64,000 nt of DNA from NCBI GenBank assembly GCA_947172415.1, contig OX359201.1, positions 1,984,001 through 2,048,000 on the forward strand, read 5' to 3'. Under the pieces are notes generated by a model. The model ran no database searches. It was not told the origin of the DNA and was given only the letters and a program-made list of their open reading frames with translations. The translations under genes and the position numbers were made by a program. Position 1 is the stretch's first letter. The number at the start of each line of letters is the position of its first letter. Shown here one piece after another: positions 1 through 61,080 of this stretch. The DNA comes from Chondrosia reniformis (Eukaryota; Porifera; Demospongiae; Chondrillida; Chondrillidae).

Positions 1-3000
1 ACTAGAAAGTGCATCTTTTGACGGACTACTGTTATTTTCCTCGGCCGGAGAATCTGGAACTGAGGTTTCACTAGTGAGCTGATGCACTATTGGCTCTAGA
101 GTAGCGTGCTTATTGTTGTTACTGTTCATATTACCAGTAATGCTAGCAGGTTGATGAGTTGGAGTGACACTTGTTAGTGCTTGTAGAGCTGTGTCTGTGT
201 CATTGCTGGTTTCTTTGTTGAGTATTTCTGCATCTACTTGCTGTGATTGAACTATTTCCAACTCATTTGATTTTGAATCCATGATAGTTTCTCCCTCTTC
301 AGGACTAACTTTTATCTGGCTTTCAAAAGTATCAAGTTTATGAAGAGGAACAATTTGTGGAGGAGTGGAATCAGTGACAGTAGTAACAGAATCGATAGGC
401 CTTGAAATTGTGACATCTGAAGTAAAATAGAATAAACTATATGTGACACAAAGATGGCAGATTGAAATGCAAATGGTTAATTTTGGGAGTAGCTTCTCAA
501 CATAGGGTTAGTACACATGTCAAACATAATGACAACTGCTTATTACTGACTTACACCATGCAGCCAGCAGACTAAGTGTTACATATACGTACACTAAACT
601 GAGCACCAATTAGGGGAGAACGGCTGTCAGTTTTTAGATGGCTAGGAGATAATTAATTGTTGCAAGGAAGGTAGTTCCCTCCATAACTTCTTTTGTCTGT
701 CACATCCATTCTGTAGTTGTGTGTTGGTCAGCAAACAATTACCTACCTTGTTTTGGTTCAGCTTTGAGTGGTGATGATGCCTTTAAAGAGTTTCTCCTCC
801 TCCAAGCAGGCACAGAGGACTGTAGGACACCAGAGGACTTAAGCAAATCAAAAGAGTATATGGAGCAGGAAATCTTACAGCATCTGATATATCTTTTGGA
901 TGGTTCATCTTTCAGCACTTTGAGAGTCTAAATATGCAGTTCAGTAAATTTTTTGTCCGATGTTTCAACCCCAAGGTCCCTTCTTCTGTGACCGTCTTTA
1001 GGTGCTCAAAGAGTTGAAAGATGAACCATTCAAAAGATTAGTTCAACGCAGTCAGAAGGAATCCATATTCTATTAACATCTAACGCATACAGTGTAACTA
1101 TCAAGGAGGAATGCATCAATCCAGGTCTACTCAAAATACTTCATGTGCACATATACGTAGTACTTACATAATCAGAATAGAGTTCTGCTTCCAAGAAAGG
1201 TTTCCACTCAACCTCTGGTTTATTAAATTCAGCTAAATACAAGTATTAATGGTATAAGTATACAGAATAAGGAGCTTTAAAGGCAAGATGTGCGTAAAGA
1301 AACAATCAATCAGCAATCAATATAATAATCAGACCACAACTGTTTACTAATTATAGAGGAAAAGTAAAAAGAGAAACAATCAGTGAAAATCAAACCTAGG
1401 GTAGCTGGTCACAGTCATGAATACTCTGCCATTGATGTAAAATTACCATAGCTATACTCCATCTGTTTCCCACTATACTAATACTTGTCCAAAAATATTA
1501 AATCCACTTACATTCTTTTAACTTCTCTAACACTTGTTTTCTTGCAGAACGTGCAGCCTTCATTATTTGGACTTCCTCAGCTCTCTTCTTGTCCTCCATT
1601 GATACCTAATGTTTTATTACACCTTTGTATGAATGTAAGTACTAAAATATCTGTACATCAATTGCACACTATTACGTATAATGAGATGGAGTTGGGTATA
1701 ATGGACAATCCATGTGGGTCACTGTAGAGTGGTTATAATTTAAGAGCGAAACTACTACAGCTCTGTCTGTAAAGTAAATAAGCCCGTGTTTGACATATCG
1801 AATAATACATTCCAGGACAAAACTGTAACGGCCATTTTAAAGTGTGTACGTACGTAGATGTAAGCTCTTCAAATGGCTGTAACCTTATTACAGGTTACTG
1901 TAAATTTTATTGGCAATATAACTACAAATTTTCACAATACCAACACATACCTTTGATAAATAAGGACTATCACATTCCTCTGATTCTGTAATTGGATGTG
2001 GAGAAGGGGTTTTCCTCATTTTTAATGCTGCCATAGCAACCTTGTCCATGGCATCATTCACAACGCTTGTTGCATAAGATTCCTGCCTCTTAAGTGATCC
2101 TCTCCTCCTTTTTACTGTTTCTTTGGGCTGAGGAAGCTCAATTTGCATTGACCAAATCTTATTGTCCACAATGCTACAATATTTAGAAAGAAATACAATA
2201 TGTTTATATATGAAAAGTAAACCATCCACAGAATCTCTCCTCCAGTGAGGCCTAAGTCCAGCTAATCTAAATATGTACTGTACCTAGTGCTGTAAATTGG
2301 TTACAATTTGAGCATCAGCAACACTTATTATTAATCAATTTATTAGGACTTTTCGACCCGTAGGTCTTAACCAACTCATTATGAACACAACAAGTACCCC
2401 TTATTACTTCACCTGGTGCGGTATACACTCACTAACTGATGCGTTATTGCTTATCTCTCTACATTGTTCATATACTGTACATGTTTGGAGGCTAGAGAGA
2501 TACATGTTAAGTATGGAAAGCCAACACAAGTCATTTGGCCTCTCTAAACACATTGTAGATTAGTGCCTTATTGGTCAGGCTTGTTTCACTTGCTAACAGT
2601 GATGGGATTGAGATAGAGTTTAGTGTACCACTTACCCCAAGTGCTTGAGGATGGTTCTGAGCGGTAGAGCTAAACTCTTGCCAATGGGAGCCACAATCAC
2701 ATCTTCAATCTACGTATGTACAAGAATCACATCACCATATAGTACAGATGTACAGAGCCAAGCACATAGGCAATCATATGTGTATACATGTAATACACAG
2801 ATTGGAAAATTACAAAAGGTTATGTACTATCTATGTATTCAGATAGCTAATACCATAGATATGTATGTATATACGTGTACATACATATATGTACACGTAT
2901 ATACATCTTTCGACTCTTAAAACATAGTTTGGATTTATAAATCTTTTGGTCGAACGCTTTGACCCTGAGGGTCTTCATCAGTCGATAAGTTTGATGCAGT

Positions 3001-6000
3001 TAGAAGAAATCCTTATTCTATTACATATATACGTACATACCTATGTGAACTGTTAATTATACCAAACTATACACTTAACTAGTTATAGATTAGTATGTAC
3101 CATTATGTAGGTATATACAGAGATGGGATAGGTCATTATACACTCTAACACTTATTACGTCCCGCATGAATATTGTAAATGTTGATTTCGATAAAATGGC
3201 TAGCTACGTAGTCTCATCTAGTAAACTTGGTGATTTTCTGTAACTATCTAATGATCATTTATAATTGACACAACTAATACGTACGTACGTACACACGTAC
3301 CTCTATCCAGCCACTCAAGACAAGAAACCTTTTACAGTTCTCCAGCTGCCAAACCTTTTCAAAGAAGCTGCTACTGGAGACCCTTACTCTTCTGTAAGTG
3401 TCCTCCTCAGGATGTTCTTCAACATTTCTAAGTAGATTTGGGGATACATATTTCAAAGGATTCAACTAGGCATCTAAATACAAATCTTGTAAAGTATTTC
3501 TGCTAGTACTTTAGGGATAATATCTGCCTATATACGTATGTGTAAGGTTAAATATGTAATAACCATAAATCCATCTGTATACTGTACCACCTTACCAAGT
3601 ATGCTACAGAAGGCAATTGGCCTATGTTCAAAAGAAATAACGAAACTAAGCAGGAGAGATGTCTTCTTGTATGTATTCCATCAGACTAAGTAACTGTATG
3701 TATGTACATAAGGTAAATGTATAAAATGAAATCAGGTGAAATCAGGCCTGATTTTCAGGGAAATATTGCTACCTTATTAGAGGGTATAGCTGGGTTTTGG
3801 GTGCTTCTTGAGACATCGGACATCCTTCACAGTCTTGACTTAAAACATCCAGTTAATTAGCTAAAGCTCTCCAGCAACCAATACTACCCTGTTAAACCCA
3901 AGGAAGGCTTCCTAAACAATACTCCTACATAAGCAGGCATGCTGAGGACTCATAAAAGGTCAACAAGACAAAAATTCTCAGGATCGCTTTCTCCGAAACA
4001 GCTGTCTGGCCAAGTGGAGAATAACAAAAGAGGAAGGAGAAAACTCTTGTATCCTCATCCAAAGCTCTGACTAGGTTTATTTTCCTATAGGCTTTTACTC
4101 TAAAGTTGATGTAGCATATTAAATGGTGTGTCAGATTAGTCATGTACACTAACTTGGTAATGGTTTTTAGAATCTCCAATGCTGTCTTTGCTTCAATGAT
4201 GTCACAACTCTTTCTTAATTTGTCCAAACAAGAATTCAGAGATGCAATATATTTAGCCAACCAAAGTGGCTCTGGAGACTTTGCAGCACCTCCTTCAGTA
4301 TTCTGTAGAGACACACAACAGACTTCAAAATACATCATACACACATACATACATATATGTTAAAGGTGAGATTAGTGAGCTTTCCGTAGCCAATCGAAAC
4401 AATCAAATATTTCAGGACATTTCGGTCTGTAGACCTTCTTCAGCTGATAAAAGCACTAAAATATTACATCCTAAATAAACAATCTGATTGGTGGGGTTAA
4501 AAAATATGATGTAAAATGACGTCATGAATAACAATTAGTGAGGGGGTTAATAGTAAATATGCATATGTAATGGCAGTTAATTAGTACGGTGGCTATTGTT
4601 GTCGCTGTTGGTACCTTGTTTCGATCGGCTACGGAAAGCTGACTAATCTCACTTGTCATAGATCCAACGTAGCAATGAATCTGTATTCTATCACATACAT
4701 ATATGTTAAAGGTAGACAGTTTTGAGAACACTGTCCATAGAAACGTGCGGCAACATGAGCATAGGCATAATGGTGAATGACAATCTCATTGAGGGTCCAT
4801 ACAGGACTCCACAATTTAAATGAAGAAACATCAAATGCTCACTAAAACTTACATTCACAGCTGCATTGGTTACTGTACTCCCCTTGACATCCTCAGAATC
4901 CCTAGCAAAATACATAGTATGTATGTAAGCATTACATACACATCAGGAATTGAATGCGTGCATCTAAAGAATGTGAGATTGTGAGTTTTGCCCACATTCG
5001 AAATCTTTTGATGTGCATTGATTTGGTACTCTAGTAATTCCGTATACTAGTCCATATATGTACCTTAAGCTTCATCTACATCGCAATCTATTACCCTAGC
5101 ATTCTTTCCCGACATATGGTATGTATACATACATGTTATGTAGTATTGCATACACTTGTAGTCAAATGTAAGCTCCAAAGGGACACTATAGGATATATTA
5201 TAGTGTTTACTTTATTGTTCTGTTGGATAGACTCCTGGATGGTGCTGTAGGCTACAGAAAGAGTGCAAATATAAATTAGCAATATACAACCACACCAGAT
5301 TCAGTGTAGTCTACTTATACATACCTCAATTTCTGGAATGTCATCGAGTGCCCAAGTTTTTGGTCTTGTTTTTCTCTTTTCACTACTTCGTTGGGTTGCC
5401 ATGTTGGTTGCCATGGTTACTGTGTCTTTTTCTGAGTCTTCTATTGTAGCCGAATATTCTTTTGAAGTAGATTTTTCCAATGCTGATGTACTTTCTTTTG
5501 AAGTTGCTTCTTCTCTAGGAGCTGATGTACTGTCCTTTGAAGTTATTGATCCTTCTATTGAAGGAGATGTACCCTCTTTTGAAGTGAAGCTACTTGAGTT
5601 GGAGGTGCTTCTAAAAGAATCATTTGATGAATAAGAAAGATCATACATGGACTGAGTTTTGCGAAATGAAGATTGTTCATTGCCTACAGCGGAAAAATCC
5701 ACATTTTCTTTAGCAGATTTCTTGGATTTCTTGTGGTGCCGTTTGGGGCTCTTCCTACTCTTAGGCGAAGATGTAGCTTGCTTGGATGTAGCTTGCTTGG
5801 ATGGGGACTCATTAGTTCCTTTTAATTTGGTTCCCGATGACATGTTCTCGTAAAAACTAATGGCACTACCAACGTTCATAGCTTGCATTGACTGTGTACG
5901 TCTCACTGTTCCAATTTGAGGAGATGCTTCATATTCACACACCTGAAAATGACCTGCTGTCTTGGTCATCTCCTGACCTTTCTCTTCATTGTAAGATTTC

Positions 6001-6799
6001 CCACGCCTGAAAAAACCTGATGATTTTGACTTTTTTGATTTGCCTTCGGATTGTTTACTTTTTGCAGAAGATGGTCTACTTTTGGCTGTTTTAGGTGAAC
6101 CAGTTAGCTGGCTCTCGGGCACCTTTTTGGTTGATACTTCTGTATGTTTAGGGCTGGCTGGTCTCTTTTTAGGGCTGGCCGGTCTCTTTTTGGGACTGGC
6201 CGGTCTCTTTTTGGGACTGGAGGGCCTTAATAAACTGCTGAAGAGAGAAAAGCCTTTTTTACTCTTGGGCTGAGATGGTTTTTCTTCAGAAGTGTTGTCA
6301 GAATTGGGTACCATTTCATTTTCAGGCTTAGTCATAGTTGGTTTGTCCTTCTGATTTGAGATTTCCTTTGGCTTCTGCTTGGGACTTCCCTGAAACCACT
6401 TGGGAGAGTTTGACGACTTAACTTCAGTCTCCTTGCCAACCTGAGGAGACGGATGAGGTGACCTATGACCTGTCTGTGGCTTTTCTGCTTCTGTTTTTGC
6501 CTTATCATCTGCTTTAGTTTGGTTATCAGAACCGGAACTATATGGCTTTCCAGTAATCTTCCAATTCTTCAGATCTTCTAAATTCATTTTATCACTTGTA
6601 TCAGAGTCTCTAGATGACTTTAGACCTGAAATGGTGCTATACCTTTTCCTGGATACTGGAGCATCTGTAAACATTGTAGTAAATAACTACATATGTATAT
6701 GTATAGGTTGGCATAATAAAAGACATCTAGTAAAATCTCACTAGGTGTATGCTTATGTGTCGAAGTGTAATACCAGCCTCCATTAATATTCGTTCCCAT
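1..6799 (-). CDS. PUB-like domain protein with long Ser/Lys-rich region (3' end beyond window)
   Basis: I do not recognise an orthologue. Exons joined by splice sites and phase: 6742-6799, 5325-6664, 5211-5251, 4853-4901, 4150-4302, 3301-3465, 2636-2709, 1951-2173, 1512-1605, 1168-1232, 747-837 and 1-416, still open at the edge. The 1340-base exon is disordered, with tandem SPKKRPA-type repeats and many SP/KS motifs. Exons 4150-4302, 3301-3465 and 2636-2709 together read like a PUB domain: an ALEIL helix, then LLRNVEEHPEEDTYRRVRVS, then KVWQLENCKRFLVLSGW and a VAPIGK strand. In known families (NGLY1, UBXN6, HOIP) PUB domains bind p97 tails or similar peptides. Exon 1512-1605 encodes a charged helix (KKRAEEVQIMKAARSARKQ). 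The proposed start at 6799 has an ACCATGG context, but a splice from the upstream MICAL-type exon 7506-7842 is equally in phase. The gene model is firm, the PUB call fairly firm, the function unknown. Confidence 0.72.
2957..2981 (-). ncRNA. Hammerhead-like core, Penelope type
   Basis: Minus strand CTGATGA with a perfect GACCC/GGGTC stem, followed by AAAGC instead of GAAAC. Next to the CAGTTAGAAGAAATCCTTAT word at 2999-3018. Probably decayed. In an intron of the PUB-like gene. Confidence 0.4.
4366..4652. mobile_element. 287-bp element with 37-bp inverted ends and an internal hammerhead-like core
   Basis: Left end GTGAGATTAGTGAGCTTTCC (4366-) continuing through CGTAGCCAATCGAAACAA matches the complement of 4616-4652 at all but two positions. 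Inside, on the minus strand, CTGAAGA, a GGTC/GACC stem and GAAA occupy 4420-4443. The stem is the reverse of the usual GACC/GGTC, a compensated change. Both sides carry ACATATATGTTAAAGGT (about 4351-4367 and 4697-4713). In an intron of the PUB-like gene. Confidence 0.65.
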
Positions 6800-6955
6800 G
6801 GTGATTTGTTGAGTCAAGTGGAAGAAGAGCTCTGGTAAAAATGTCTCTGAAACCGACAAACTCGCTTAATGTTAGGTCCTCAGGTTTGTGTATTACGCCA
6901 GTGCGTACTCATAAAGAAGTGTGGAAGTGTAATACCAGCCTCCATTAATATAATT
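6761..6955. repeat. Direct repeat of about 28 bp around the first exon of the PUB-like gene
   Basis: The word beginning GAAGTGTAATACCAGCCTCC occurs at about 6762-6789 and again at about 6928-6955. The first copy lies in the candidate first exon (6742-6799). The second has no ATG. It could be a duplicated exon start or a simple repeat, which weakens the case for this being the only first exon. Confidence 0.6.
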
Positions 6956-7497
6956 ATATTGAACCTTGATCAGGGAATGTTCTCAACAGTATAGCACTCT
7001 CTCTTTTACACTTATGAAATGACACATAATGTTACCATAGTAACCAAAGATTGGCCATTGTAAATAGTAGACGTACTTATACATATGTATATCATATTTA
7101 ACAAGCTGCTGTTGTATCTACATACATACCAATGACATCATAGTGAAATATTTTAGTGAACTTTGTACTGATATACGTATGATTTAATGAGCATCAGCAA
7201 CATAAATTCAGTAGGTTTGGTTAGGTTTTGATCACATGACTCGCAGTGAATGACTGTAATTTTTTAGCACTAAATTTAATTTTCAAGTTTTATTTAAGCA
7301 GAAGATCCTGATGGCATTGAATTCAAAGCAGTGTGGAAGAAACATAAAGTTTTAAATATATAGTCCAGCTATGCATACATATGTAACATGTAGGTGTGCT
7401 ATATTCAGTATTGTTTCTGAGTTATGGGCATATTCAAAGTTAAAGGCATCCTTTGGTCCTATACTGCCCAAGTAAGAGACGCACTTTGAAATAAATT

Positions 7498-10400
7498 TTA
7501 CTCACTTTTCTTTTGAGACTTTTTAGGAGTACTTTTTATTCCACTCCTAATGACCTCTGTAGGGAGCTGTGGTCCCTGTCCGACGTCATGCAGGTGTGAG
7601 ACATCGTTCAGAGGAACAAGGTCCTTGATATCCAGATAGCGTGTGGAGGGATCTATTGTGTACTTCTCAAAGTTGCAGTTCACTCTGTTGGGAGTGGTTT
7701 GAGAGAGGAGCTGTAGGATGGACTCCCTTTCTTCTATGAGTTCCATCGGAGGTCTTCCCTCACCAAACCCCTTCATCATCCAAGCAGCATCAAACACTCC
7801 TAGGTAGCCCCTTGCAAGGCCAGACCCTGTTGGCCAAAATGGCTGCAACAAATTAAATAAGTTCAAAGATGTCTTTTTTCAAATTATGTGTGAATATTTT
7901 TATTTTACGTGTTTAATATACACTTTCACATATTCTTTCAATTAATATAATCATCTATCTTCCACTATGAAGGTCCCTGGATTGGGTTGAAAAGTTGGGA
8001 ATTTGTTCCTCAGTTTGGCTAATGTGGTTACCTGATCAATCTAGCATGCAAGAACCTAGCCGTATATAAAAGTTCTCCATGTGTACGTACATGCTGTACC
8101 TATCATATGTAGATGTACATATAGATATATATAATTGGAGATGTACACATGGTTGCATGTGCATGATTGCACAAAAGATCAAGATCAAGAAAAGACAATG
8201 ATTCCCAGGGTCACTGATGAAGGGTGGAATTCCCAGAAACAGCTGTCTGGCCCATGCAGTGGAGCAGAAAGAGAAAGAAAAGAAAAGACTCCTGTATCTT
8301 CATCCAAAGCTCTCTCCAGGTTTAGTTCCCTATAGGCTTTTTTACAGAGTAGGCATGGCATGTAGGAAAATGTTGTATTAAATATTTCATGTGCACAATT
8401 TTAGGTTAAGCTAGTAAACTCACTTCAATGAGACTGTCTCCGACAAGACACATCAGAACACGTTTATTTTTCCTTTCCACAATTCGAGCAGAATTCTCAG
8501 CAGCAAACAGAGAAGTAAAGTCAAACAGTGCCACATCATCTCTTCCCCTGTAGTCCTTCTGGAACGTTAGCTCCTCAACTTTGAAGCCTCCTTTGGTAGA
8601 AAAGGAAGCTACATCTTTGGCATACTCCTTCAGAGCACTTTGACACACATTACCAGAACTGAGCAGCTGGGAAGCATCGGGAAAGTCCTGCAAAGGAAGA
8701 GGAAAATCCTTACTCATGCCAGTTAACGTTGCTGTTAACCCACACCTCTTTATTACAGCTGATGAAGATATAAGAAGTTCTCAAATCATTCTTTTCGAAT
8801 ACAATATTAAAGTTTAAACAAGTGTATATGTACATTGTTCATGGAAGGAATACAACATGAACATGAGTATACAAATGTATATCATATGTAATCCATTGAA
8901 AGCATACATTGCTATAATATAAATGCACACAACATCAACATAAATATAAATAATCCCAAAGCTAAGCCACAGCAACTACAGATCTAAGCCACAATTTTTG
9001 CTTATTTGCTGATGAAGACCTACGGGACGAAACGTTCTACTAAAGAATTCATTGCTGTTGACGCTCAATAACTGTCTAACTCTCAAAGACATCCATGGTC
9101 ACTAAGAACTGTTACCAGAAACAACTGTCTGGCTTAGTGAAACAGAAGAATAAAGAGAAGACTCTTGTATCCTCATCCAAAGCACTTAGTTCCCTATAGG
9201 TCTTTCACTGTATAACATAGGAAAATGTTTTACATCACTGATGTACTTGAATAGTCTGACTAGGGCATATTTATTTGTTTATTTATTATCATATTTATTT
9301 ATTATAAATGGTCAAAGTACTCAAACATACTGTGAGACCATGTGTACCCAGGCTGTTAACCCTGGTTATATAATAATCAGATCTTTCTGATAAGGATCAG
9401 AGGTGACACAGAGAGTTTGTAGTGCGCTCTCCTGGGTGGTTCCCAGGGGTGGCTAAAGAAACTTACACCTCAGGCACTAACCACAATCAATACTTTAGGA
9501 GATTAAGGTAAGGAATTTACATAACTTAGATAGCAGAGCTTGTATTGGGGCTATGAATATCATTATGGAGGAATGTGACTTGTATAGTAGTGTAATTTTA
9601 CTGGAGTTGAAAACATTCCTAACAACAGCTGAGGAAAGCACATTTAATCATGATAGCAGGGGTTTGAACAACAACATACTACAGATCTACTAGTATATGT
9701 ACAGTCTGTGTAGTCTTGCCTTATAATAGGCGAAACCTTACATTCCTGTATTGTGAAGATTTCCATAGCTATATATATATATCTACGTATCTAGACTAAC
9801 CTAAGCTATGGGTAAACTGATACAATACACATGATACAGGATAAACTATTCCAACCAAATTACCAAACTACTAGACATGTGCTTGTCATGAGGCATTAAT
9901 GTGCAGAATGTGAAGATCAAAATCAGCTGTCCTGGGTTCTATTGCAGGATCTACTTTAATCATGTTCTTCCTATTCACAATTGACTAATTGTGGTTGACA
10001 TTATCATTTTAATTACTCGTAAATACACTACATACATTTAATATATGTACATATGTACATATACGTATACATATTCCATACCTGTTTGAGCACTCCTCTC
10101 TTCAAGAGACTCTGTTTCTTGGCAGTCATCACGAAATAATGTGTCTCGTCTTTGTAGTAGACAACATTCTCCAACTCAATTCCATGCTTATCTCTCATTT
10201 CGTTGAAGAAAGCTTGATGGTACACGTAGGCAATTCCACTTATTTCACTAATTTGGGCTTCCTTCTGTGTCCCTTGGTTAACAAAATTGGCTGTAATAGC
10301 GATGGCCAGTCTAGGTCTGAACTCCTTTGTCCTAAAGCCTGGTAAAACATATTTCTTCCCGTCAGCCCCGATCATGATATCGTAACAAGAGTTAGTGACT

Positions 10401-11574
10401 GGACAGCTGTTTGGCTTGACCTCTGCCCTCCAGCCACGCCCACTGCTTGGCTCCACCACTTTGAGGAACTCCACCGCTGGGTGAACTTTGACCCCCAGCA
10501 GTAATGCAGTCTTCAGCAGGACATACTGAAGCATGCGTATACCTAATGTAGACAGTGAAATAAAGAAAGACAAGATTAGATGGTTGCCAACGTCTCCATT
10601 ATCAAATTTGAATAGGAAAGGAATATAGTTATATATACGTATATACTGATTATACACCAAATCAAAGAAAGCATCATCCAATGGTGGATTAGGTGGGAAA
10701 TCTCTGGGCACTGAAGCACCTCCACTAGATCTGTGTTTTATAATAGCCATTACCATTTTGGGGAGCTTACTCCTAATTTTATCTTTTTGAATACACATCT
10801 TATACGCATACAACGCCCCTCTACGAATTTCTATATCTGTCCCTGTTAAGTTAAAATTATAAGGTCTTCAAGTACTAATCAAGTATTATAGATGAACCAT
10901 ATTTCGAGTACTAGTGGTCATATAGATTAAGTATCACCAATAACACCACATGAATGGTAACATTTGGCCTTAAAAGATGAAAAAACATGTTTTGTGGTTA
11001 ACTTGTAAATTTTAATATATAGATAATGAGTTATATAGACTACTTGCAGAATATTAATATCGAAAATAAGGAGGATGAGTGCGCATAGCTACGTATACGT
11101 ACTAATATGATCAAGGTCACTTGAACAAAATCGCCCATAAAACTTTTTTGCTCCCAAATTCCTCAAATCAGTTATCAAGAAAGGCCACAGATGGAGGACG
11201 TTATTCCGGGAGAAGCTCTCCCTCTTTTCCACCACATCCACCTGGGCTCCCAACAGGGCCGCTTCGATAGCTGCTCTAAGACCTACGGGACCAGCACCGA
11301 TAACGAGACACTTCATTCCTCTGCACGAAGTCTGCTGTTTATACTCCTCCTGACTAGCTCGCTTGTCGAATAGCTTCCACAGCTCCTTCCATCTCCAGGT
11401 CGTCAGCTTCTCTTTCAAGTCCTTGTAAAGGCCCTCGTATTGGTTAAAGTCCACTCCAAGTTGACTACACATATCTCGCACCAAATCTATTATTTCAAGA
11501 AAGGATTTCGAGTCGCTGAGCTTCTGGAAATAGCGTTCTCCAATGTTTGAGTTGTCCAACTCCGCCGTAGCCAT
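7498..11574 (-). CDS. MICAL: MICAL-type flavin monooxygenase, copy A
   Basis: Exons 11103-11574, 10082-10542, 8424-8687 and 7506-7842, all with GT-AG borders and matching phases, give about 511 residues covering a whole MICAL FMO domain. Visible: Rossmann motif CLVIGAGPVGLRAAIEAALL near residue 85, the NNVLHLWPFL segment, a GADGKK flavin motif, THYFVMTAKKQSLL, and the LVGDSLIEPFWPTG GD motif near the end. MICAL enzymes use FAD and NADPH to oxidise actin methionines and disassemble filaments. No CH, LIM or bMERB domain is seen. The ORF meets TAA at 7498, but AAAA|GTGAGT at 7506 is a strong phase-1 donor matching the used donor of copy B, so the mRNA probably continues, perhaps into the exon ending at 6664. 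The start chosen is the ATG at 11574. Confidence 0.88.
8060..8370 (+). mobile_element. Short interspersed element, family B (TATA box, hammerhead-like core, tail)
   Basis: Contains a TATA-like GTATATAAAAG at about 8061, an AAGATCAAGATCAAG tract, the hammerhead-like core at 8208-8253, and the conserved tail reading AAAGCTCTC..CAGGTTTAGTTCC..TATAGG, followed by a GTAGGAAAATG.TGTATTA end. Related copies of varying decay on the plus strand lie near 3994-4101, 9095-9225, 24960-25040, 45795-45925, 48955-49105, 51300-51430, 57120-57215 and 61225-61445; minus-strand copies lie near 50040-50165 and 56290-56440. At 60373-61445 and 48745-49105 the same tail follows a reverse-transcriptase fragment, so these look like solo ends of that retroelement. 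Confidence 0.6.
8208..8253 (+). ncRNA. Hammerhead-ribozyme-like motif (family B, best copy)
   Basis: CTGATGA at 8214-8220, then GGG 8222-8224 pairing with CCC 8232-8234 (stem II, A.A mismatch at its base), then GAAAC 8236-8240, loop AGCT 8241-8244 and GTC 8245-8247. A15.1-U16.1 and C15.2-G16.2 would make a two-base-pair stem III, with cleavage after C8247. GGGTCA 8208-8213 pairs with TGGCCC 8248-8253 as stem I (one G-U). A very short stem III is the form described for Penelope-like elements. Activity is not shown. It lies in an intron of MICAL copy A, antisense to that gene. Confidence 0.55.
9009..9033 (+). ncRNA. Hammerhead-like core, family A
   Basis: CTGATGA at 9009-9015, a GACC/GGAC stem with one mismatch, and GAAAC at 9029-9033. 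It is followed by the family's usual tail with a TTGCTGTTG..GCTCAATAA segment. No proper stem III or cleavage triplet (GUH) is visible, so it is probably inactive. Confidence 0.4.
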
Positions 11575-11835: not shown

Positions 11836-14800
11836 CTACGTATCTTGCAAGTGCAGCAGCACCTTCTGTGACAGCATGTGAAGTGTTGGAGTACCAGCTT
11901 CATCAGCACAAGTCTTAGCTTCAGAGGAGATCTCTAAATTGGACATCCTCTGGCTTGTCTCAAGGCTTGGTGTTATTGACAGATCACTGACTGACTCGTC
12001 TTGGCTATTTTCATCAAGTTGTTCATGTGCAGGAACTGCAGGTACAGAGTTGCTAAACACTGCAGGAGCTACATGGGAAATTAACAACAGTCCATTAGTA
12101 CGAATAACAATTGAGTATTTAAACATCTAAAGATTATCCTATAGTTTTGAATGTCATTTAATTCACCTCTCCCCTTTCTTTTGAGAATGTAAGTGAGCAA
12201 ATGGGTGGAAACCAAAACTACTAATTGAAATCAAAATCTCTCCTTTTCCACTAGGCAAGGTGTATGCTGTCATTTAAAGATTATTACGATCAGCCTTATA
12301 TTTTAAATGTCATTTCAGTGCAATCATCAGCCATACTTTGATGATACACTCACAATATCACAATACACCCCACACTAATGGCAGTTCAGATCTTTGGCTG
12401 AACTATCTTTTTGAGTGGTAAAAAGGCAAGACTCTGGTATCCATCAAGCAGACTCTGGTCCCATCCATTAGTTTATTGCTCTTTGGAAAATCTGAGCATA
12501 CTGGGTAAATATCATAGTCAAACGATCTCTGATACAGAATTAGTACTTCAACCATTAAAATGTTGAACATTGCATGCGAGATTCAAAATGTACAGACAAA
12601 GCATAATGGAACTACTGAGGTGTCAAATCAATGTACATCAAAAGATTAAGTATGCAGGTAAAACTCGTCTTGAGACATACGCATTCAATTCCTGATATAT
12701 ACATATACAGTAAATAGCTTAATTAAGTTCATAATAAGCCTATTATTTGTAAATATATGCCCATCACTACAAAGCAACAAACCCCTGACACCTACTTTTA
12801 GCTTTCTGGATGGCTTTCAATCCGCTACAGAAGACCTGTGTGGGGGGCAGTGGTTCATCTTCTTTGTTGAAAAGATGGGATAGATCACGTTGCTGAGTTG
12901 TTCCCTTGACATTAAAATACCGGGAAGAAGGATTGATTGAATACTTGTTAATATCCCTCTTAAAGATAAAGGCAGACTGAGAGAGAATTTCCCATGTGGA
13001 CTCCCTTTCTTCTATGAGTTCCATCGGAGGTCTTCCCTCTCCAAATCCCTTCATCATCCAAGCAGCATCATATACACCAAAGAACCCTCGCACTAAGCCA
13101 GTCCCGGTTGGCCAAAACGGCTAAAAGAGAAATAAAGAAGTTTGATGTCTTGGCTTGGCAGAACCAGAAACATACAAGAAGTGCAATTAGATGCTCAAAA
13201 AGTTGAAAGTTTAACCATTCAAAAGAAAAGTCCAACACAGTCTTATTTACAAGAGCATTTTTCAAATGTAACACATTTAAACTTCTATACATTATACATA
13301 AAAGTAACATTTATAAAATACCTGTAACACAAATTATGGCAGGTCTCAACTTCTGCAGTGACAATCCATCAAAAGTAAAAAGGTACGATTTCATTTTCAT
13401 ACTATCATGTTAGGGAACTCACTTCAATGAGACTGTCTCCAACAAGACACATCAGAACACGTTTATTTTTCCTTTCCACAATTCGAGCAGAATTCTCAGC
13501 AGCAAACAGAGAAGTAAAGTCAAACAGTGCCACATCATCTCTTCCCCTGTAGTCCTTCTGGAACGTTAGCTCCTCAACTTTGAAGCCTCCTTTGGTAGAA
13601 AAGGAAGCTACATCTTTGGCATACTCCTTCAGAGCACTTTGACACACATTACCAGAACTGAGCAGCTGGGAAGCATCTGGAAAGTCCTGCAAAGGAAGAA
13701 GAGAGACTTGAAATAAAGAATTAATTTATCAATGCATATGGAATGCACAGGAAAGACTTTACATGAATATTATATTACCTCCTTTAGTACTCCTCTCTTC
13801 AAGAGACTCTGTTTCTTGGCAGTCATCACAAAATAGTGAGACTCGTCCTTAAAGTAGACAACATTCTCCAACTCAATTCCATGCTTCTCCTTCATTTCCT
13901 TGAAGAAGGCTTGATGGAAAACATAGCCAATGCCATTAATTTCTTTAATTAGCTTTTCCTTACTTGTACCATGATTTACAAAATTAGCAGTAATGGCTAT
14001 TGCAAGTGTTGGTCTAAATTCCTTCACTACAAAGCCTGGCAGTAAATATTTCTTCCCGTCAGCCCCTATCATGACATCATAGGATTTCTCTGAAACTGGA
14101 CAACTGGTCGGGTTGACCTCTGCTCTCCAGCCATGGTCACCAGTAGGCTCCACCACCTTGAGAAACTCCACTGACGGGTGCACTTTGACCCCCAACAGCA
14201 AGGCTACCTTAAGCAGAATACATTGGCTGGTACGTATACCTAAAGGGAACAGTGCAGGTAAGACTTTATATCCTCATCATTCGACTCTGAATTTTTGCAA
14301 TGGTTAAGTTTTTTATTCTATTTTTTAATCTATTCTAATTTTTATTCTATATACGTAGTCTGTACAATTATACTATCAGAACCTCTTACAGCACATTACA
14401 TACCTCTATACATTATTAATTTATTGAACATTTAATTATAGTGCAAGTTTACTTACTAATATGATCAAGGTCACTGGTACAGAATTTTGCATAAAACTTT
14501 TTTGCTCCCAAATTCCTCAAATCAGTAATCAAGAAAGGCCACAGATGGAGCACGTTATTCCGGGAGAAGCTCTCCCTCTTTTCCACCACATCCACCTGGG
14601 CTCCCAACAGGGCCGCTTCGATAGCTGCTCTAAGACCTACGGGACCAGCACCGATAACGAGACACTTCATTCCTCTGCACGAAGTCTGCTGCTTATACTC
14701 CTCCTGACTAGCTCGCTTGTCGAACAGCTGCCACAGCTCCCTCCATCTCCAGGTCGTCAGCTTCTCCTTCAAGTCCTTGTAAAGGCCCTCGTATTGGTTA

Positions 14801-14925
14801 AAGTCCACTCCAAGTTGACTACACATATCTCGCACCAAATCTATTATTTCAAGAAAGGATTCACATTTGCTTAACTTCTGGAAATATCGGTCCCAGTCCG
14901 TATTGTTGCATTTAGCTTCATTCAT
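11836..14925 (-). CDS. MICAL: MICAL-type flavin monooxygenase, copy B, with short Ser-rich tail
   Basis: Exons 14457-14925, 13779-14239, 13423-13686, 12796-13120 and 11836-12068 sum to 1752 bases (583 residues plus stop). The FMO domain (residues 1 to about 507) has the GAGPVG Rossmann motif, the GADGKK motif and the LVGDSLIEPFWPTG motif, so FAD and NADPH binding looks intact. The final exon adds 76 polar residues (VPAVPAHEQLDENSQDESVS...) and stops, with no CH, LIM or bMERB domain, whereas typical MICALs are about 1000 residues or longer. Exon sizes match copy A (461 and 264 bases identical in length). Exon 3 differs from copy A at only about two bases while exons 2 and 4 differ widely. Actin oxidation is inferred from the family. 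The start is the ATG at 14925; the in-frame upstream codons are non-ATG. Confidence 0.88.
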
Positions 14926-15490: not shown

Positions 15491-17101
15491 TCACTTCCTG
15501 GAGCTTACACAAGCACAATCCTTCTTAATGGACCCGCAACAAGACCAATGCCAACACCCAGGGTGACTGGGGTGCCCATGTCCACATCCACTGTAGCCGC
15601 CTGGCATCACGCCCCCACACCCACAAGCCACATTCTTCTTTCCACTTGAGGAGCAAAAGGTACAACAGTGGTAGGTGCCCCAGTGCTCACTGCTAGTGCC
15701 ATCAACAATACTGACCACAAACGGACTCCTTTTGATGTCCTGCCCATTGACAGAAACTGATATATTGTGCTCTCCTTTCACCTTTGGAGTAAACTGCACT
15801 GCATAGGTACCATTCTTATCATCTCTCATAGAAACCTCAACTCGGCAGCCATTGGGGTCAAGGACTCGGACCTCCACCATATCTCCACCAAGTGATCGGA
15901 CTTGCCCATGACAGTCACATACTTTGATTACAAACTGGCTCAAACTATCGATGGTACCACAGTCCAGTCCCGAACCAAATGCAGTACTTTGCAAGCCAGA
16001 GGGACCAACGGTATCGATTCTTCCTGTCACTGGAACGTTATGGCAGTGCCCGGCTGGGTGCTGAGGGAAAAAGTGGAGATAGTCATTTTCCACAGGATGG
16101 AAATTTGATGTAGAAGTAATGCAGTCCTCTAATGATCTCAGGGCTTGAGGCTGCTTAGACACTTGTTGATTCTCAACTCTAAGGTCCGACACTGCTTCAT
16201 AAGATGCCACTAGTCCACTCAAGGTTTTCTGTAGGTCACACATTTGAGTGTGGATGGCGAGTTCTTTCTCATCACAAGCTATCTCAATCTGCTGTAAGAG
16301 GTTTCGCTTATGCTCTTGCAAGGCACGCATCTGAACATCTACACTCTCACAGACTTCTGCTGCTACTTTGGCACTTTGTATGTGCAATGAACGGACAGTG
16401 AAATGAAGGTTCTTTATTGCCTCTGTGAGGTCATCAACTGAGGATTTCGCTTGACGAAGTAAGTGGAACCCAACTATACTATTTGCCAGTCTAGAACCTT
16501 CAATTTTGACACAAGTATGTTTCTTGTGTGTAGACTTGATACAGCCATCACAGAGTGACAACTGGCAGGATTCACAGTAATGGCTGGCTGTAACTACTCT
16601 GTGATGATAACAAAAGAGATCTGGTTGCTTGCTGGAAAGAAGGCTCTGGGCCTTGATCTTTGGCTGAGTTAGATGCTGAGTATCCCTCTGATGGCTAAAG
16701 TCACATGACGGACACATGTCATACTGACACACTGAACAGTGAGATATTGAAATAATATCATCAGTTTGACATATATCACATCTCATCGCAGATTCTTCAA
16801 GACTTCCTCTGCTAACTCTTTCCCGGTGTTGCTTTTGAAAACTTAAATCAAAGACTCCATTTTTAATCGAAAGGTCCAACATACCCTGAAGATATATGTT
16901 TGGTGGCAGCCCGTTCACTCCATTTGAGGGTAGGGGGTGTTCCTCTACACACTCCGGACAACAAATCAGACTGGCGCCATCTTCTCCTTCATGTTGAATC
17001 TCTTCAAGACAAACTTTACAGTACGTGTGGAGACAAGGAAGAATTCGAGGCGATTTATACTTCTGTAAACAAAGAGAACAATTTAACTGATTCGAATCCA
17101 T
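15491..17101 (-). CDS. TRIM45: TRIM45-like RING/B-box/coiled-coil/filamin protein
   Basis: Single exon, 536 residues, ATG at 17101. Order: C3HC4 RING from residue 9 (CSLCLQKYKSPRILPCLHTY..CCPEC); B-box 1 near residue 107 (CDICQTDD..CPSCDF); B-box 2 near residue 162 (CYHHRVVTASHYCESC..CDGC); coiled-coil to about residue 300; one filamin/ABP280 repeat at about 372-470 (DPNGCRVEVSMRDDKNGTY, SPFVVSIVDG); and a Cys/His-rich tail (YHCCTFCSSSG, CGCGGVMPGGY, HWSCCGS). RING, two B-boxes, filamin and this particular Cys-rich tail are the TRIM45 signature. TRIM proteins are RING E3 ubiquitin ligases; TRIM45 is reported to dampen MAPK and NF-kB signalling in vertebrates. It is divergent from NOM1 with 852 bases between start codons. 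The lack of introns is unusual among its neighbours. Confidence 0.9.
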   Translation of the reverse strand: MDSNQLNCSLCLQKYKSPRILPCLHTYCKVCLEEIQHEGEDGASLICCPECVEEHPLPSNGVNGLPPNIYLQGMLDLSIKNGVFDLSFQKQHRERVSRGSLEESAMRCDICQTDDIISISHCSVCQYDMCPSCDFSHQRDTQHLTQPKIKAQSLLSSKQPDLFCYHHRVVTASHYCESCQLSLCDGCIKSTHKKHTCVKIEGSRLANSIVGFHLLRQAKSSVDDLTEAIKNLHFTVRSLHIQSAKVAAEVCESVDVQMRALQEHKRNLLQQIEIACDEKELAIHTQMCDLQKTLSGLVASYEAVSDLRVENQQVSKQPQALRSLEDCITSTSNFHPVENDYLHFFPQHPAGHCHNVPVTGRIDTVGPSGLQSTAFGSGLDCGTIDSLSQFVIKVCDCHGQVRSLGGDMVEVRVLDPNGCRVEVSMRDDKNGTYAVQFTPKVKGEHNISVSVNGQDIKRSPFVVSIVDGTSSEHWGTYHCCTFCSSSGKKNVACGCGGVMPGGYSGCGHGHPSHPGCWHWSCCGSIKKDCACVSSRK

Positions 17102-17953
17102 TTCGATATCAGAAGAACTAGGCTAGACCTTCTCTTTCTCAACAGGTATAGCGAAGTGGACCATTTGTAAACAGAAACTACATAGGTAGGGATTCTTAAA
17201 ACCACCGATGCGATACCGGATACCCGTATACAGAGCTCGTACTGTTGGCAGCCATTTTAATTCTAATTAAGTAAGGGAACGACCGTTCTTTAGCGCTTCT
17301 AGCCGCACCAGCAAGCCGGTATAGTCTATATGTCTATTAGACCCCTGAAAAAAGGCCATTAGTTCTTGTTATTAGCTGAGACCCCTTTAAGACTGCAACT
17401 TTTGTTGATATATGGCATCCAGATGCATCATCTTTAGTCTAAAGTGTGAATTGGTAGGCCATGTGTTCTACCTTATATGATCTGTATAAATTACCACTCT
17501 CAATGCAGTAGTTGAGGATTTCAAAGCCTGCAGCAGTGTGACTAATTATAAAATCTTTTACTGTTTTAAATTATAAATATACTTATCCTAGGAGTCACTT
17601 GCATCTCTTTAAATTTGTAACTTGCACTGTGTAGTACTTGATTGTAATTATACATGTACAGATAAAAAACGAAAGTAAATGTACTATATTAAAAACTCAT
17701 AGGATATACAATATAATTAGGCCTAGGAGGTTCATCTTTCGTGTATTATAATTCTTACACGGTGGTTGTTGTTAGCAGATCTTTAATTATTTACTAACGA
17801 TGTCATGAGTGATGACGAAATCGTCAGCTAGTGGAGAAAAATCAAAATTTACACTGTATATGTTAACTATTAAAAATGATCATACTTTTGTGGTGTGTTA
17901 AGGAAAAATGGCTGATTATTGCAGAAGTAGTACTAGTTGGTGATAGTGAAATA
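17102..17953. promoter_or_regulatory. Shared upstream region of TRIM45 and NOM1
   Basis: The two start codons face away from each other across this stretch. The sequence at about 17240-17253 reads GGCAGCCATTTTAA, whose reverse complement contains AAAATGGCTGCC, a YY1-like site common in housekeeping promoters. No TATA box stands out near either start. The shared promoter is inference. Confidence 0.4.
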
Positions 17954-32900: not shown

Positions 32901-35900
32901 GGAGCGTCCCCTTGTCAACTTCTCCACAATCTCGTAAGGCCCATCCCATTTTTCATCAAGTTTTCCACCCATTCTGTGATTGTTTTTCATGACCTTTACC
33001 AATACCTTAGAACCGACTGAAAATTCCTTTAAAAATGAACAAGAATTATATAATGCTTAATGCAATGTTATATGATTTGGACAGTATATATGAAAGCATA
33101 TATATACTTACATGATTAGAGTGTTTTACATCATAATACTTCTTTTGCCTTGCTTGTGCCTTAAGGATGTTTTCTGTGACCTCTGCTTTATTGTGCTCCC
33201 TCAGTTCAATCAATTGCTTCACGAAAGTGTCCTTTCTGTCTTCATCATCAATGGGTGAGGCTGGGTCAATTGAAGAGTTTGCCAACCCATGATCAATGGC
33301 CTCTCTTGGATGTCGATTGTACATTAAGAAATAAGGAGAGAACTTGGAAGAATCCTGCTTTGAAATCCTGTGTGATACTCCTTCCAAATGAAGGTCCCAA
33401 TTTTCCTGATGGTCCTGTGTGAGCTTAATGAGGGTTCTGACAAGGGTCTGATTCATCCTTTCGTCCAAGCCATTGGTTTGGGGATGATAAACACTGCTGA
33501 TTCTATGCTCCACCCCTGTGTGTTGGAAGAGGCTTTTAGTAACATTGTTCACGAACTTGCGACCTTGATCTGATTGGACAATTTGAGGCCATCCATGGCG
33601 GAAATATACGGACATTAAAAATTCGGCAGCACCTACTGCAGTTTTGTCTTGTTATGAAGCTGCTTCGGGCCACTTGGAAAAATAATCCGTTAAAGTGATA
33701 ATGTATCGTTTGCCACGCGGTGTCAATGGAAGTGGGCAAACGAAATCAATCCCCACTCTGTGCCACACATCTGTGACAGGAATGGGATGTAGTTCAGGCA
33801 TGTTCTTAGCCAGTTTGCTGTTAACTCTCTGGCAAGTGTCACAGTACCTGCAGAAATCAAGAACATCCTTTGTTAGTGACTTCCAATAGAAGGACTGTGC
33901 TATCTATTGATGGAAAAAGATATATATTGATTATTACTGTTGTAAAATTAATACAATGTACATGCTTCCTATGCCTATATAGAGATAAATAAGTATAACT
34001 ATATATGCTATGAAGTATGTACACCCTTGCTGTAGGTCTTGTCTCGTCCAAAATGGGAGCTATCAATACCACTGTGGCAAGCTGTCAAAATTCGTTGCTT
34101 TTTTATTGGCTTGTGATCACTCGCTGCATCGCCACCTCTCACGTCTCATTCTTCACGGTTTTTCGAAATAGAACTCTGTTTCGTTCATCAAATGTCTCTG
34201 CCTGCTGTCTCAATGCTCTCTTATCGTTAGCTGTGAATCCGTGAATCCGTTTTTATAGACATTTTGGGCGCTTTTTTATTTTGTTACTTTCCTATTGGCT
34301 AAAAATCCTAAATCGTATCCCCTTTTCAGCCCAAGTTGCTTACTTATATATATAAAGCATTTCGTGGATGATACGCTTAAAACGTAGAGAATAGGATAAA
34401 ATTTCCTAGTTTCCGGTAGTCCACCAGGATAGTTTATACTATCTGGGCGGATAAAATACACGGGGATAAAATATCCTGTGACATTTTATCTGTATATATT
34501 CCAATCCCTCTAAAAGAGAGACCGGGAGCATTTGTGCCTCATTTTTCGCATGCACTATATCTATAGGTCGCTGGTGGATTGTGGGCTCAGCTTGGACTGC
34601 GAGAACAGAGACTTCACAAGGTCAGTAAATGGTGAATACAAGTTTGTCTTTAGCTAGTATTCTAACAGCCAGAAGCTGTAGTATACAATACCTACATACT
34701 TAAACATGTATAAATTACATTTTCTTTGTCTATATCTATAATTGGGTCTTATATTATGACAAATTCAGTCAGTTTATAAGTATGCTTCCATATTGCCTAT
34801 CAACCATATCTGTTCTATGGTTTATCTTTCTTGTTATGACGCATATAAGGTGTAGGTTTTGACATTTAATCCTCTTTGTTAGATGTGAGATCCACCCAGT
34901 CTGTGGACTCTTGGGTTCTTGAATTGGCAAGAAAGCAGAAAATGAACACTGATGTTAGGAAAAATGTGTTTGCTGTCATCATAACAAGTGAAGTGGGTAT
35001 ATACGTATATAACTTAATGTATGCGTATACATTTGATGCATTATGTATATATGTTTTGTATAGTAAAAATAAATTTATTGCAGATTTTCTAAATCTAAGA
35101 CTTTTGATTTGATTATCAATCTTTCTAAATCAGCATTTAAGTCATATTTTAGACTATATTTCCACTGATAATGCTATAAGTGTGCATCTAAAAATTGGTT
35201 GGTAAATTGTGAATATTAAAGACCTTCAAAGGTTGTTTCTGTTGGCATTTACGTATGTCCATTCATTAATAGGACTTCAATGACGCTTTTGAGAAGCTAT
35301 TAAAGTTAAATCTGAAGGAAGTACAAGAACGAGAAATTGTTCATGTCTTGGTTGACTGCTGTCTAAGGGTAGGCAAAGATGAGTTCCTTAATAATAGTTT
35401 GTGTGTAACATTACAACCGCTTTAAATTTCATGCATACAATACCTGAATGTGTAATATTAGATGTATGTACGTATGTATGTATGTATGGATGTATGTATG
35501 TATGTACATCGGAAAGGGAGTTAATGCACTGAGCTACTCAAAGGTTATTCTATGATAGTAATGACTGGTTGCCATTAATAGGACTAGCCTTTCAACTTAG
35601 ATAAGACTTCGGTCACTGGCTTAGTCAGGTATAATAATCTCCCAGTGATTATAATATATTCTATAGCCGTGCACGTATAACATGTAGTAGTTATAACCCA
35701 CTTCCGAGGGCTGCAGGCAAAATACAATACGAGGCCGAGGCGAAGCCGAGGCCGAGTAATTGTATTTTGCCGAAAGCCCGAGGTAGCGGGTTATAACTAA
35801 TTTGTACCCCTTTGCCATGGCAGCAGGACACCTTGCGTTATAATTTTATTCAGCGGGAAAATGGACAAGGAGAATAGCGAACCAAGAAGGAAGCGTTTGA

Positions 35901-42399: not shown

Positions 42400-43762
42400 C
42401 TACAAAGTAACCATCCTGTTGACATACTGGAGATGTCTAAGCAGCAAGATCATGGTATTATCCACTGGAAGTCGATAATTGTACTGGACAAAAGGTTGTC
42501 CATTTACCAAGACCTGAAAGCAATTCATTTGATACATATAAGCTATAGTAAAGTGCTCGGATGGTTGCAGAGGAATATATCCTGATCTCTCTGCTTTTCC
42601 CCAGCCTTTTCCAACTATGAAGGTATTGCGAACAACATCATTTTCAGTAAATCGAGGATTAAAGTGGAAAACAATATCTTTTTCAGAAGTCGATGAAAGT
42701 TGTTTTTCATCCAGGTTGAACAAGTTGAGGTCAATTCGGCCAGAAGGTGGACTTCTCCCTTCAACAAACACCACTCTACCAGACTGGCAATCAGTTATTT
42801 TCTATACAAAGATAGATATGAGCTATATACGTAGACCATATATGCATAGTCATGGCAATAAGGCTGATAATCGGGGGTGGGAATTATCTACGGTAACCAT
42901 GCATAAACAGTGTGATCATTTGCTAATTAATAGGATAGGTATATGCTATGAAATTAAAGCAGTGAAAAAAAAACAAATGCACTAAGCCAGTGCAAAGGCT
43001 ATGATAGATATTACAGATTTACTTCCTGCTATATTAAATTTAAACAAGTCTTAGAAGTAAATCTCTTTTCAATGTGTATGTAATTTAGTCATGATCTCTG
43101 TCAGTGAGTAAATTTAGGTATTCCTTCATTTTTTAGCCATTCCAACCCCCAGCCTGCTCAAAGGCCATGACAATGCATAGGGTCTATTATACCCCATCAA
43201 CTCAGACTTCTACTGAAATATAATTACTTGGCCTCAGCTCCACCTTGCATGGTCTTGCATATATTATATTTCGGCTATATAGTCCTTGTTTGTGTCTGGT
43301 CTATAACTATACATTGCAATTATAATAATATCCTAAATTAAAACCAGATCTTTATGCAGGCTTCACTAATTATAGTGTCTATACCTTTCCAATTGTGACT
43401 TCACTTTCTGATGTGTAGATGCCAGTTATTTCTGAAAGAGGCAAACGATACTCATATCCAGAGCCAATTTTAGCTCCATTAGCACATATCACAAAGGCAG
43501 AGTCAGTAGCTGTTACAGTTATGCAGGTCTTGGCACCTGGAGTGATTGGAAAACCCGCTGGTTTCTCCGCTGGTCCCCACTTACCGTCTATTAAAGTATT
43601 AAGCACAAGACAATTCTGGTCATATCTGGGATTTACATGGAGGACGATGTCCCCATTCGTAGCAGTGAAGTTCAGATACACCCTTCCAGAGTAAGGTGCA
43701 ATATATTCCAAATACACGACTGTTCCAACAGAAAAGTCTACTATGCCACTCATAGTCTTCAT
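42400..43762 (-). CDS. Tandem-repeat galectin
   Basis: Exons 43385-43762 and 42400-42801 join in phase for 259 residues with two galectin carbohydrate domains, one per exon. CRD1: VYLNFTATNGDIVLHVNPRY, then VLNTL and KWGPAEK. CRD2: IVFHFNPRF, VVRNTF and GWGKAERSG, then PFVQYNYRLP. The H.NPR and N residues and the tryptophan are kept in both. Galectins bind beta-galactosides outside or inside cells and lack signal peptides, as here. In both domains the residue three after the tryptophan (normally Glu) is Ala, with Glu one place later. The start is uncertain: an acceptor-like CATTCTGACAG lies just upstream, so 43762 may not be the first codon. Confidence 0.85.
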
Positions 43763-43914
43763 TGCGAAATTTTCTGTCAGAATGTAAACGTTATATAAAC
43801 GATGGTCCAATATACTCTGCAGCTGTATACTTTCACCAACGCTCTTGTCGCCTTTTATACAGAGCGTCCTTGGGCAAACCCTAGGCTTAGTGACAACCAA
43901 AAACGGCTTCTGTC

Positions 43915-43942
43915 CATATCTATCTATCTATCTATCTATATT
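43915..43942. repeat. (ATCT)n microsatellite
   Basis: Seven ATCT-type units just upstream of the galectin. Confidence 0.85.
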
Positions 43943-60372: not shown

Positions 60373-61080
60373 TTGGTAATACATGCCCTTGTAGTTGCTA
60401 ACCTTTTCCTGTTTGCTTATGAGTATGAGTTTATGAAAGGACTACTTAAGGATAACATCACCCTAGCTATTAAATTTTCCAATACTTATAGGTATATTGA
60501 TGACCTTTTATGTATTAACAACAAGGATTTTGAACTGTCAATTAGTGACATTTACCCCAAAGAACTTATTCTTAAAAAGACAAATACCAGCCCTAGGAAA
60601 TCCCCCTTTTTAGACTTAGATATAACCATTACTAGTAATCAATTTATCACTAAAGTATATGATAAGCGAGAGGACTTTAACTTTGATATAGTAAATTTCC
60701 CCCATTTATTAGATAGTAATATTCCTAATACCCCAGCCTATATGGTGTCTTTATTTCACAACTAATTATATAGGTATTCCAGAATATGTAGTGACTTCTC
60801 CAGTTTTCAGGCTAAAAGTTTGCAGTTATGCAGTAGGCTTATTAAGCAGGGTTACAAATATATACTTTAAGCTAAAATCAACCTTTAAAACCTTCCTATC
60901 CCGGCAGCCTCTAGTTAGAATCAAGTATAAGCAAAAAGTAGCTAGTATGCTTAAGACTGTCTTGTGTTACCCCACCTCCAAAGAAATGTTATATACTACT
61001 AGAAGACCTAAGGGTAGACTTATGTAAAATGTCCTACTTGTGTCTATAGTTATGCTGAGTCTGTTTTACCTATATATACA
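60373..61080 (+). pseudogene. Penelope-like reverse transcriptase fragment
   Basis: Begins inside the RT domain: VVANLFLFAYEYEFMKGLLK, then the catalytic YRYIDDLLCINN, IYPKELILKKTN, FLDLDITIT and VYDKREDFNFDIVNFP. The frame breaks near 60765 and continues in other frames (YSRICSDFSSFQAKS, LIKQGYKY, PTCVYSYAES), so it is a 5'-truncated, frameshifted copy. The YIDD box and FLDL block fit Penelope-like or related RTs. It is followed directly by the TATA-containing family B tail. Confidence 0.7.

Follow-up and report, generated by a model that had tools for sequence, protein, structure and literature searches.

The stretch analysed here, called the window, comprises 64,000 bases of the Chondrosia reniformis genome (contig OX359201.1, C13 below, 1984001-2048000; the genome has 117,379,552 bases in 15 contigs), and the gene in question is copy A, one of two neighbouring copies in it that encode a MICAL-type FMO (monooxygenase) domain. 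Copy A and the PUB-like gene downstream of it are most probably a single gene of 16 exons which encodes an FMO-linker-PUB protein and belongs to a sponge subfamily separate from the canonical MICALs (probability about 0.87). An initial annotation, made from the DNA letters, had suggested that one transcript could encode an FMO, a Lys/Ser linker and a PUB domain; the single-gene reading is supported by a gene model of the glass sponge Oopsacas minuta with the same order.

Gene model and domain content of copy A

Four FMO exons on the minus strand were joined to twelve further exons, picked by hand from splice sites and phase, giving a model of 16 exons and 1,540 amino acids with a single uninterrupted frame and consistent phases. 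The modelled gene extends beyond the window edge to C13:1983293, and its stop lies outside the window. Splice sites were scored with a matrix built on 18 of the 19 modelled introns, the scored site's own intron being excluded. The parts of the gene are as follows (window positions unless a contig is given).

11103..11574, minus strand: copy A exon 1, with start codon, GAGPVG (which we take to be a dinucleotide-binding motif) and HLWPF; donor GTACGT, phase 1
10082..10542, minus strand: copy A exon 2, FMO, where Rossman_Mical begins; phase 1 in, phase 0 out
8424..8687, minus strand: copy A exon 3, FMO; 262/264 bases the same as in copy B exon 3
7506..7842, minus strand: copy A exon 4, where the FMO exons end; GTGAGT as phase-1 donor
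6665..7505, minus strand: FMO-linker intron, 841 bases; carries dispersed repeats, roughly 7482-7226 and 6925-6785
5325..6664, minus strand: exon 5, Lys/Ser/Pro-rich linker of about 446 codons
5211..5251, minus strand: exon 6, linker, positioned by phase and splice sites; its donor is weak (0.97 bits)
4853..4901, minus strand: exon 7, linker, positioned by phase and splice sites; its acceptor is weak (0.71 bits)
4154..4302, minus strand: exon 8, where PUB begins
3301..3427, minus strand: exon 9, PUB core; six-frame match of 37.2 bits, cut-off 34.3
2636..2709, minus strand: exon 10, inside the part that aligns with the Oopsacas PUB
1951..2173, minus strand: exon 11
1512..1605, minus strand: exon 12, charged segment; weak acceptor (-4.98 bits)
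1168..1232, minus strand: exon 13; weak acceptor (-0.16 bits)
747..819, minus strand: exon 14; an alternative start at 837 preserves the frame
1..416, minus strand: exon 15, continuing outside the window to C13:1983781
C13:1983293-1983510, minus strand: exon 16 with the stop, outside the window

Pfam searches of the 1,540-residue model returned Rossman_Mical (E = 1.9e-54) and PUB (E = 9.3e-12, 45.1 bits against the curated cut-off of 34.3); CH, LIM and bMERB gave no match at E ≤ 1. The PUB core exon was also detected alone by the six-frame search of the genome; it lies further downstream in the gene than the interval 5325..7842 covered by the initial annotation. LIM was searched in the model only, and bMERB also across the genome, where 3 matches were found, one of them on C13 at 5.9 Mb. 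None of the 57 genome matches listed for CH, a lower bound (at least 57), fell on C13, and no CH exon was found near copy A. The predicted protein would consist of a MICAL-type FMO (residues about 1-490), a Lys/Ser-rich linker (about 490-990; disorder was judged from its composition alone), PUB (about 1000-1110) and a low-complexity tail.

Canonical MICAL1-3 (FMO-CH-LIM-bMERB) have the FMO and EPFWP region in common with copy A, but follow the FMO with CH, LIM and bMERB where copy A has PUB instead. That a MICAL FMO normally precedes these three domains and not PUB was also the view of the initial annotation; on CH it agrees with the statement that this domain 'always follows' the MICAL monooxygenase domain (PMC4792234), from which copy A departs. 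A third FMO of the same genome (C3:7265902-7268473) has a CH match downstream on the same strand, at 7264399. This gene looks like an ordinary MICAL with CH, and the C13 genes are something else. Further frames downstream of the C3 FMO, within C3:7268473-7261000, resemble LIM and coiled coil by eye.

Sponge relatives and the FMO-to-linker junction

Exon 4 of copy A ends in AAGAAAA at the phase-1 donor GTGAGT, which the initial annotation had called strong and which scored 9.59 bits, ranking second of 298 GT sites in 11500-6600. The acceptor at 6664, 841 bases away on the same strand, opens a long frame in the required phase, as had been claimed. Acceptors at 6655, 6625 and 6607 likewise join exon 4 in the same frame, and every earlier phase-1 acceptor between 7505 and 6664 hits a stop within 81 codons. 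A match of phase alone has a one-in-three chance, and therefore the case for the fusion leans on the relatives.

With FMO exon 4 and the PUB region as a joint query, 31 matches were obtained among 2,243 candidates, and the glass sponge protein P0121 ranked first (146 bits, the next 101). CH is listed for 26 of the 31 in the precomputed Pfam column and PUB for none; P0121 was the only one of them rescanned. This single predicted protein, named 'MICAL3-like', resembles copy A in having an FMO of the same clade, a linker, a PUB-like domain, a low-complexity tail and no CH, and differs from it in a shorter linker (about 223 amino acids) and in a PUB that stays under the Pfam cut-off (17.5 bits, E = 0.0039, against 34.3). 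Aligned directly with the window PUB, the PUB-like domain matched over 108 amino acids without a gap (25% identity, E = 7e-15), with an alignment score of 142, where shuffled sequences averaged 26 (standard deviation 4.3) and 0/500 reached 142. The C-termini of the window protein and of P0121 were also compared with 500 shuffles, of which 2/500 in the global and 11/500 in the local version scored as high. As gene prediction in Oopsacas used BRAKER and Augustus and followed the mapping of transcriptome reads (PMC10280926), the single-gene model of P0121 may have RNA support.

Among the best 120 of 7,098 matches to an FMO query, the top protein, Geodia barretti P0001, was the only one for which the precomputed Pfam column gave no CH. 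P0001 (named 'mical1') shares with copy A the FMO clade, a long Lys/Ser-rich tail and the lack of CH, LIM and bMERB at E ≤ 1, and differs in that PUB was not recognised at the same threshold. The PUB region used alone gave no match at E ≤ 1 among 3,727 candidates, a query insensitive enough to miss P0121, whose length was in range. A scan of P0121 and P0001 with NCBIfam returned just weak flavoprotein matches, far under the cut-offs.

An unrooted FMO tree of 18 rows was built from 13 of 15 retrieved proteins (the remaining 136 of 151 protein ids were left out) together with P0001, P0121, copies A and B and the C3 gene. All four CH-less sponge rows (A, B, Geodia and Oopsacas) stood on one side of a branch (100/99), and the 13 other MICALs on the opposite side together with the C3 gene.

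Several points weigh against a single FMO-PUB gene. The junction from 7506 to 6664 is a predicted one, drawn at the level of the gene model, and its acceptor, though in frame, is weak (2.88 bits, rank 5 of 47 AGs in 7480-6600), as are several downstream splice sites of the copy A model. The intron between FMO and linker holds one AATAAA (7294) and two ATTAAA hexamers (7280 and 7188), with which a short FMO-only form would be possible, and the sole signal found within 700 bases past the modelled stop was AGTAAA. The comparative case consists of one predicted protein, P0121; in Geodia P0001, the only other demosponge protein seen, PUB has been lost or is missing from the gene model. Similarity among the linkers is weak: shuffles scored as high for window and Oopsacas in 6/500 global and 10/500 local trials and for window and Geodia in 20/500 and 44/500, and for Oopsacas and Geodia in 274/500 and 185/500, which amounts to no similarity. 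An earlier test of the whole window tail against the Geodia tail (1/300 global shuffles as high) was not relied on, given these linker-only shuffles.

Some of these observations would also fit two neighbouring genes, with copy A encoding an FMO alone, its transcript ending at a poly(A) site in the intron or in a short terminal exon, and the PUB gene having its own promoter. Copy B does finish in a short terminal exon of its own, readthrough past the copy A donor meets an immediate stop (SE*), the intron contains the AATAAA and ATTAAA hexamers, and a frame with ATG at 6799 exists. This arrangement was judged very improbable, since FMO is followed by PUB within one predicted glass sponge protein, no earlier phase-1 acceptor is followed by more than 81 amino acids of open frame, and the putative first exon of the PUB gene begins in a dispersed repeat. 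That exon (6742-6799, minus strand), offered in the initial annotation as an alternative first exon, is probably not real: its ATG and the sequence preceding it lie in the repeat at 6925-6785, and its donor scored 3.58 bits. The two intron repeats, 7482-7226 and 6925-6785, are dispersed, with 34 and 9 of 47 matches elsewhere in the genome. The same ATG frame and intronic hexamers would also suit a gene with both forms, the full FMO-PUB product plus a PUB-only or FMO-only one made through alternative promoters or poly(A) sites, and MICAL genes elsewhere yield several isoforms (PMC9982024). Such a mixture is compatible with a single FMO-PUB gene and does not exclude it; with the alternative first exon scoring poorly, it was considered somewhat unlikely.

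Predicted oxidase function and the PUB pocket

The copy A FMO aligned over 477 residues each with the structures of MICAL3 (6ici, E = 1.7e-161, 541.7 bits) and MICAL1 (2bry, E = 1.6e-156), from which alignment actin oxidation by this domain is likely. Like other MICAL FMO domains, it would oxidise actin methionines with flavin adenine dinucleotide and NADPH (reduced nicotinamide adenine dinucleotide phosphate). The substrate residues of the MICAL family are methionines 44 and 47 of F-actin. A MICAL FMO alone oxidises F-actin in vitro, and CH helps localisation (PMC4792234). In copy A, PUB in the place of CH, LIM and bMERB would recruit or localise the oxidase through a protein partner.

Binding of p97 by PUB domains relies on YxxN(x)9Y (UBXD1 and PNGase; a variant in HOIP) and on K/RxxN, the latter for the C-terminal carboxylate (PMC6995525). 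Both motifs are altered in the sponges: window and Oopsacas have IxxN(x)9Y, with Ile for the first Tyr, and carry Ser in place of the carboxylate-binding Asn (RxxS in the window, PxxS in Oopsacas). The description of the domain as a p97-type adaptor in the initial annotation was thus right as to PUB, which exceeds the Pfam cut-off, and faltered on p97, two residues of the PIM motifs being replaced in both sponges. UBXD1/UBXN6 (E = 0.0062) and PNGase (E = 0.13) are the solved PUBs closest to that of the window; their PIM pocket is complete (PMC6995525), whereas the window differs at those two residues.

A standard p97 adaptor, docking the oxidase through the p97 C-terminal PIM peptide, would be in keeping with the retention in the window of 2/3 residues of YxxN(x)9Y (the N and second Y) and of the K/R of K/RxxN, and with the binding of p97 by both closest solved PUBs (PMC6995525). 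Set against these are the two substitutions common to both sponges, the further Pro for K/R in Oopsacas, and another PUB of this genome, on C9, which by eye keeps both motifs, so that the pocket change is not general in the genome. This adaptor role was accordingly rated unlikely, and p97 binding by the window PUB appears doubtful from its residues. Given its changed PIM pocket, the window PUB would more probably bind a non-PIM partner than the p97 C-terminus, by analogy with SPATA2 and CYLD. The SPATA2 PUB likewise lacks the first pocket tyrosine (PMC6995525), with Val there and Ile in the window; the likeness is one of analogy only, and the 7 PDB matches to the window PUB at E ≤ 10 included no SPATA2 chain.

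The C9 match (C9:322914-322991, 28 bits) is under the Pfam cut-off and was read by eye as UBXD1-like. Another PUB match, at C8:5666883-5667038, by eye keeps N(x)9Y and RxxN.

Taken further, copy A and its relatives could represent a second, ancient class of sponge actin oxidase, which is advanced here tentatively, at slightly less than even odds: PUB would replace CH, LIM and bMERB, the class would predate the split between glass sponges and demosponges, and the pocket would have shifted away from the p97 peptide, directing the oxidase towards a different partner, which may belong to the ubiquitin system. If true, actin oxidation and protein quality control would be linked within one polypeptide. 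Were a PUB form conserved in sponges, it would mean that a module of quite another kind can target the oxidase, and it would mark an early split in the MICAL family; a connection of actin oxidation with the ubiquitin/p97 machinery becomes testable. Database names are affected as well, since the tree does not place Oopsacas 'MICAL3-like' and Geodia 'mical1' on the side of the canonical MICALs. In a study of LIM proteins in early animals, Mical and Mical-like were found in each animal examined (in Trichoplax, Mical only) and in none of the non-animal genomes studied; a CH-less MICAL form is not mentioned in the passages available from it (PMC3305314). Among the matches listed for MICAL with PUB, sponges, Oopsacas or p97, or for PUB with monooxygenase, none names an FMO-PUB fusion in its title or the opening of its abstract, the parts covered.

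Copy B and other features of the window

11836..14925, minus strand: copy B, with FMO exons 14925-14457, 14239-13779, 13686-13423 and 13120-12796 and terminal exon 12068-11836

Copy B ends in a stop in its terminal exon, which encodes a tail of 77 amino acids, before copy A starts, and its product is an FMO-only protein of 583 amino acids. The initial annotation had correctly required a next exon in phase for copy B; that exon is already present in 12068-11836 with its stop, and hence the product is FMO-only. Splicing of copy B beyond copy A to 6664 was considered and found unneeded, the acceptor of its own terminal exon scoring better (9.83 bits).

The two copies are 82% identical across the FMO, and copy B would be a tandem duplicate with the FMO alone. 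Matching bases numbered 431/469 in exon 1, 357/461 in exon 2, 262/264 in exon 3 and 222/325 in exon 4; in the 60-base flanks of exon 3, 36/54 aligned bases match on the leading side and 35/49 on the trailing side. Recent gene conversion of exon 3 (8687-8424 and 13686-13423) would be the simplest reading of these counts.

Elsewhere in the window, the following frames were read by eye.

15491-17122: a large frame with RING/B-box (TRIM-like) and a filamin-type repeat
33046-33651 and 60373-60765: fragments of retroelement integrase and reverse transcriptase
42400-43927: galectin-like carbohydrate-binding domains

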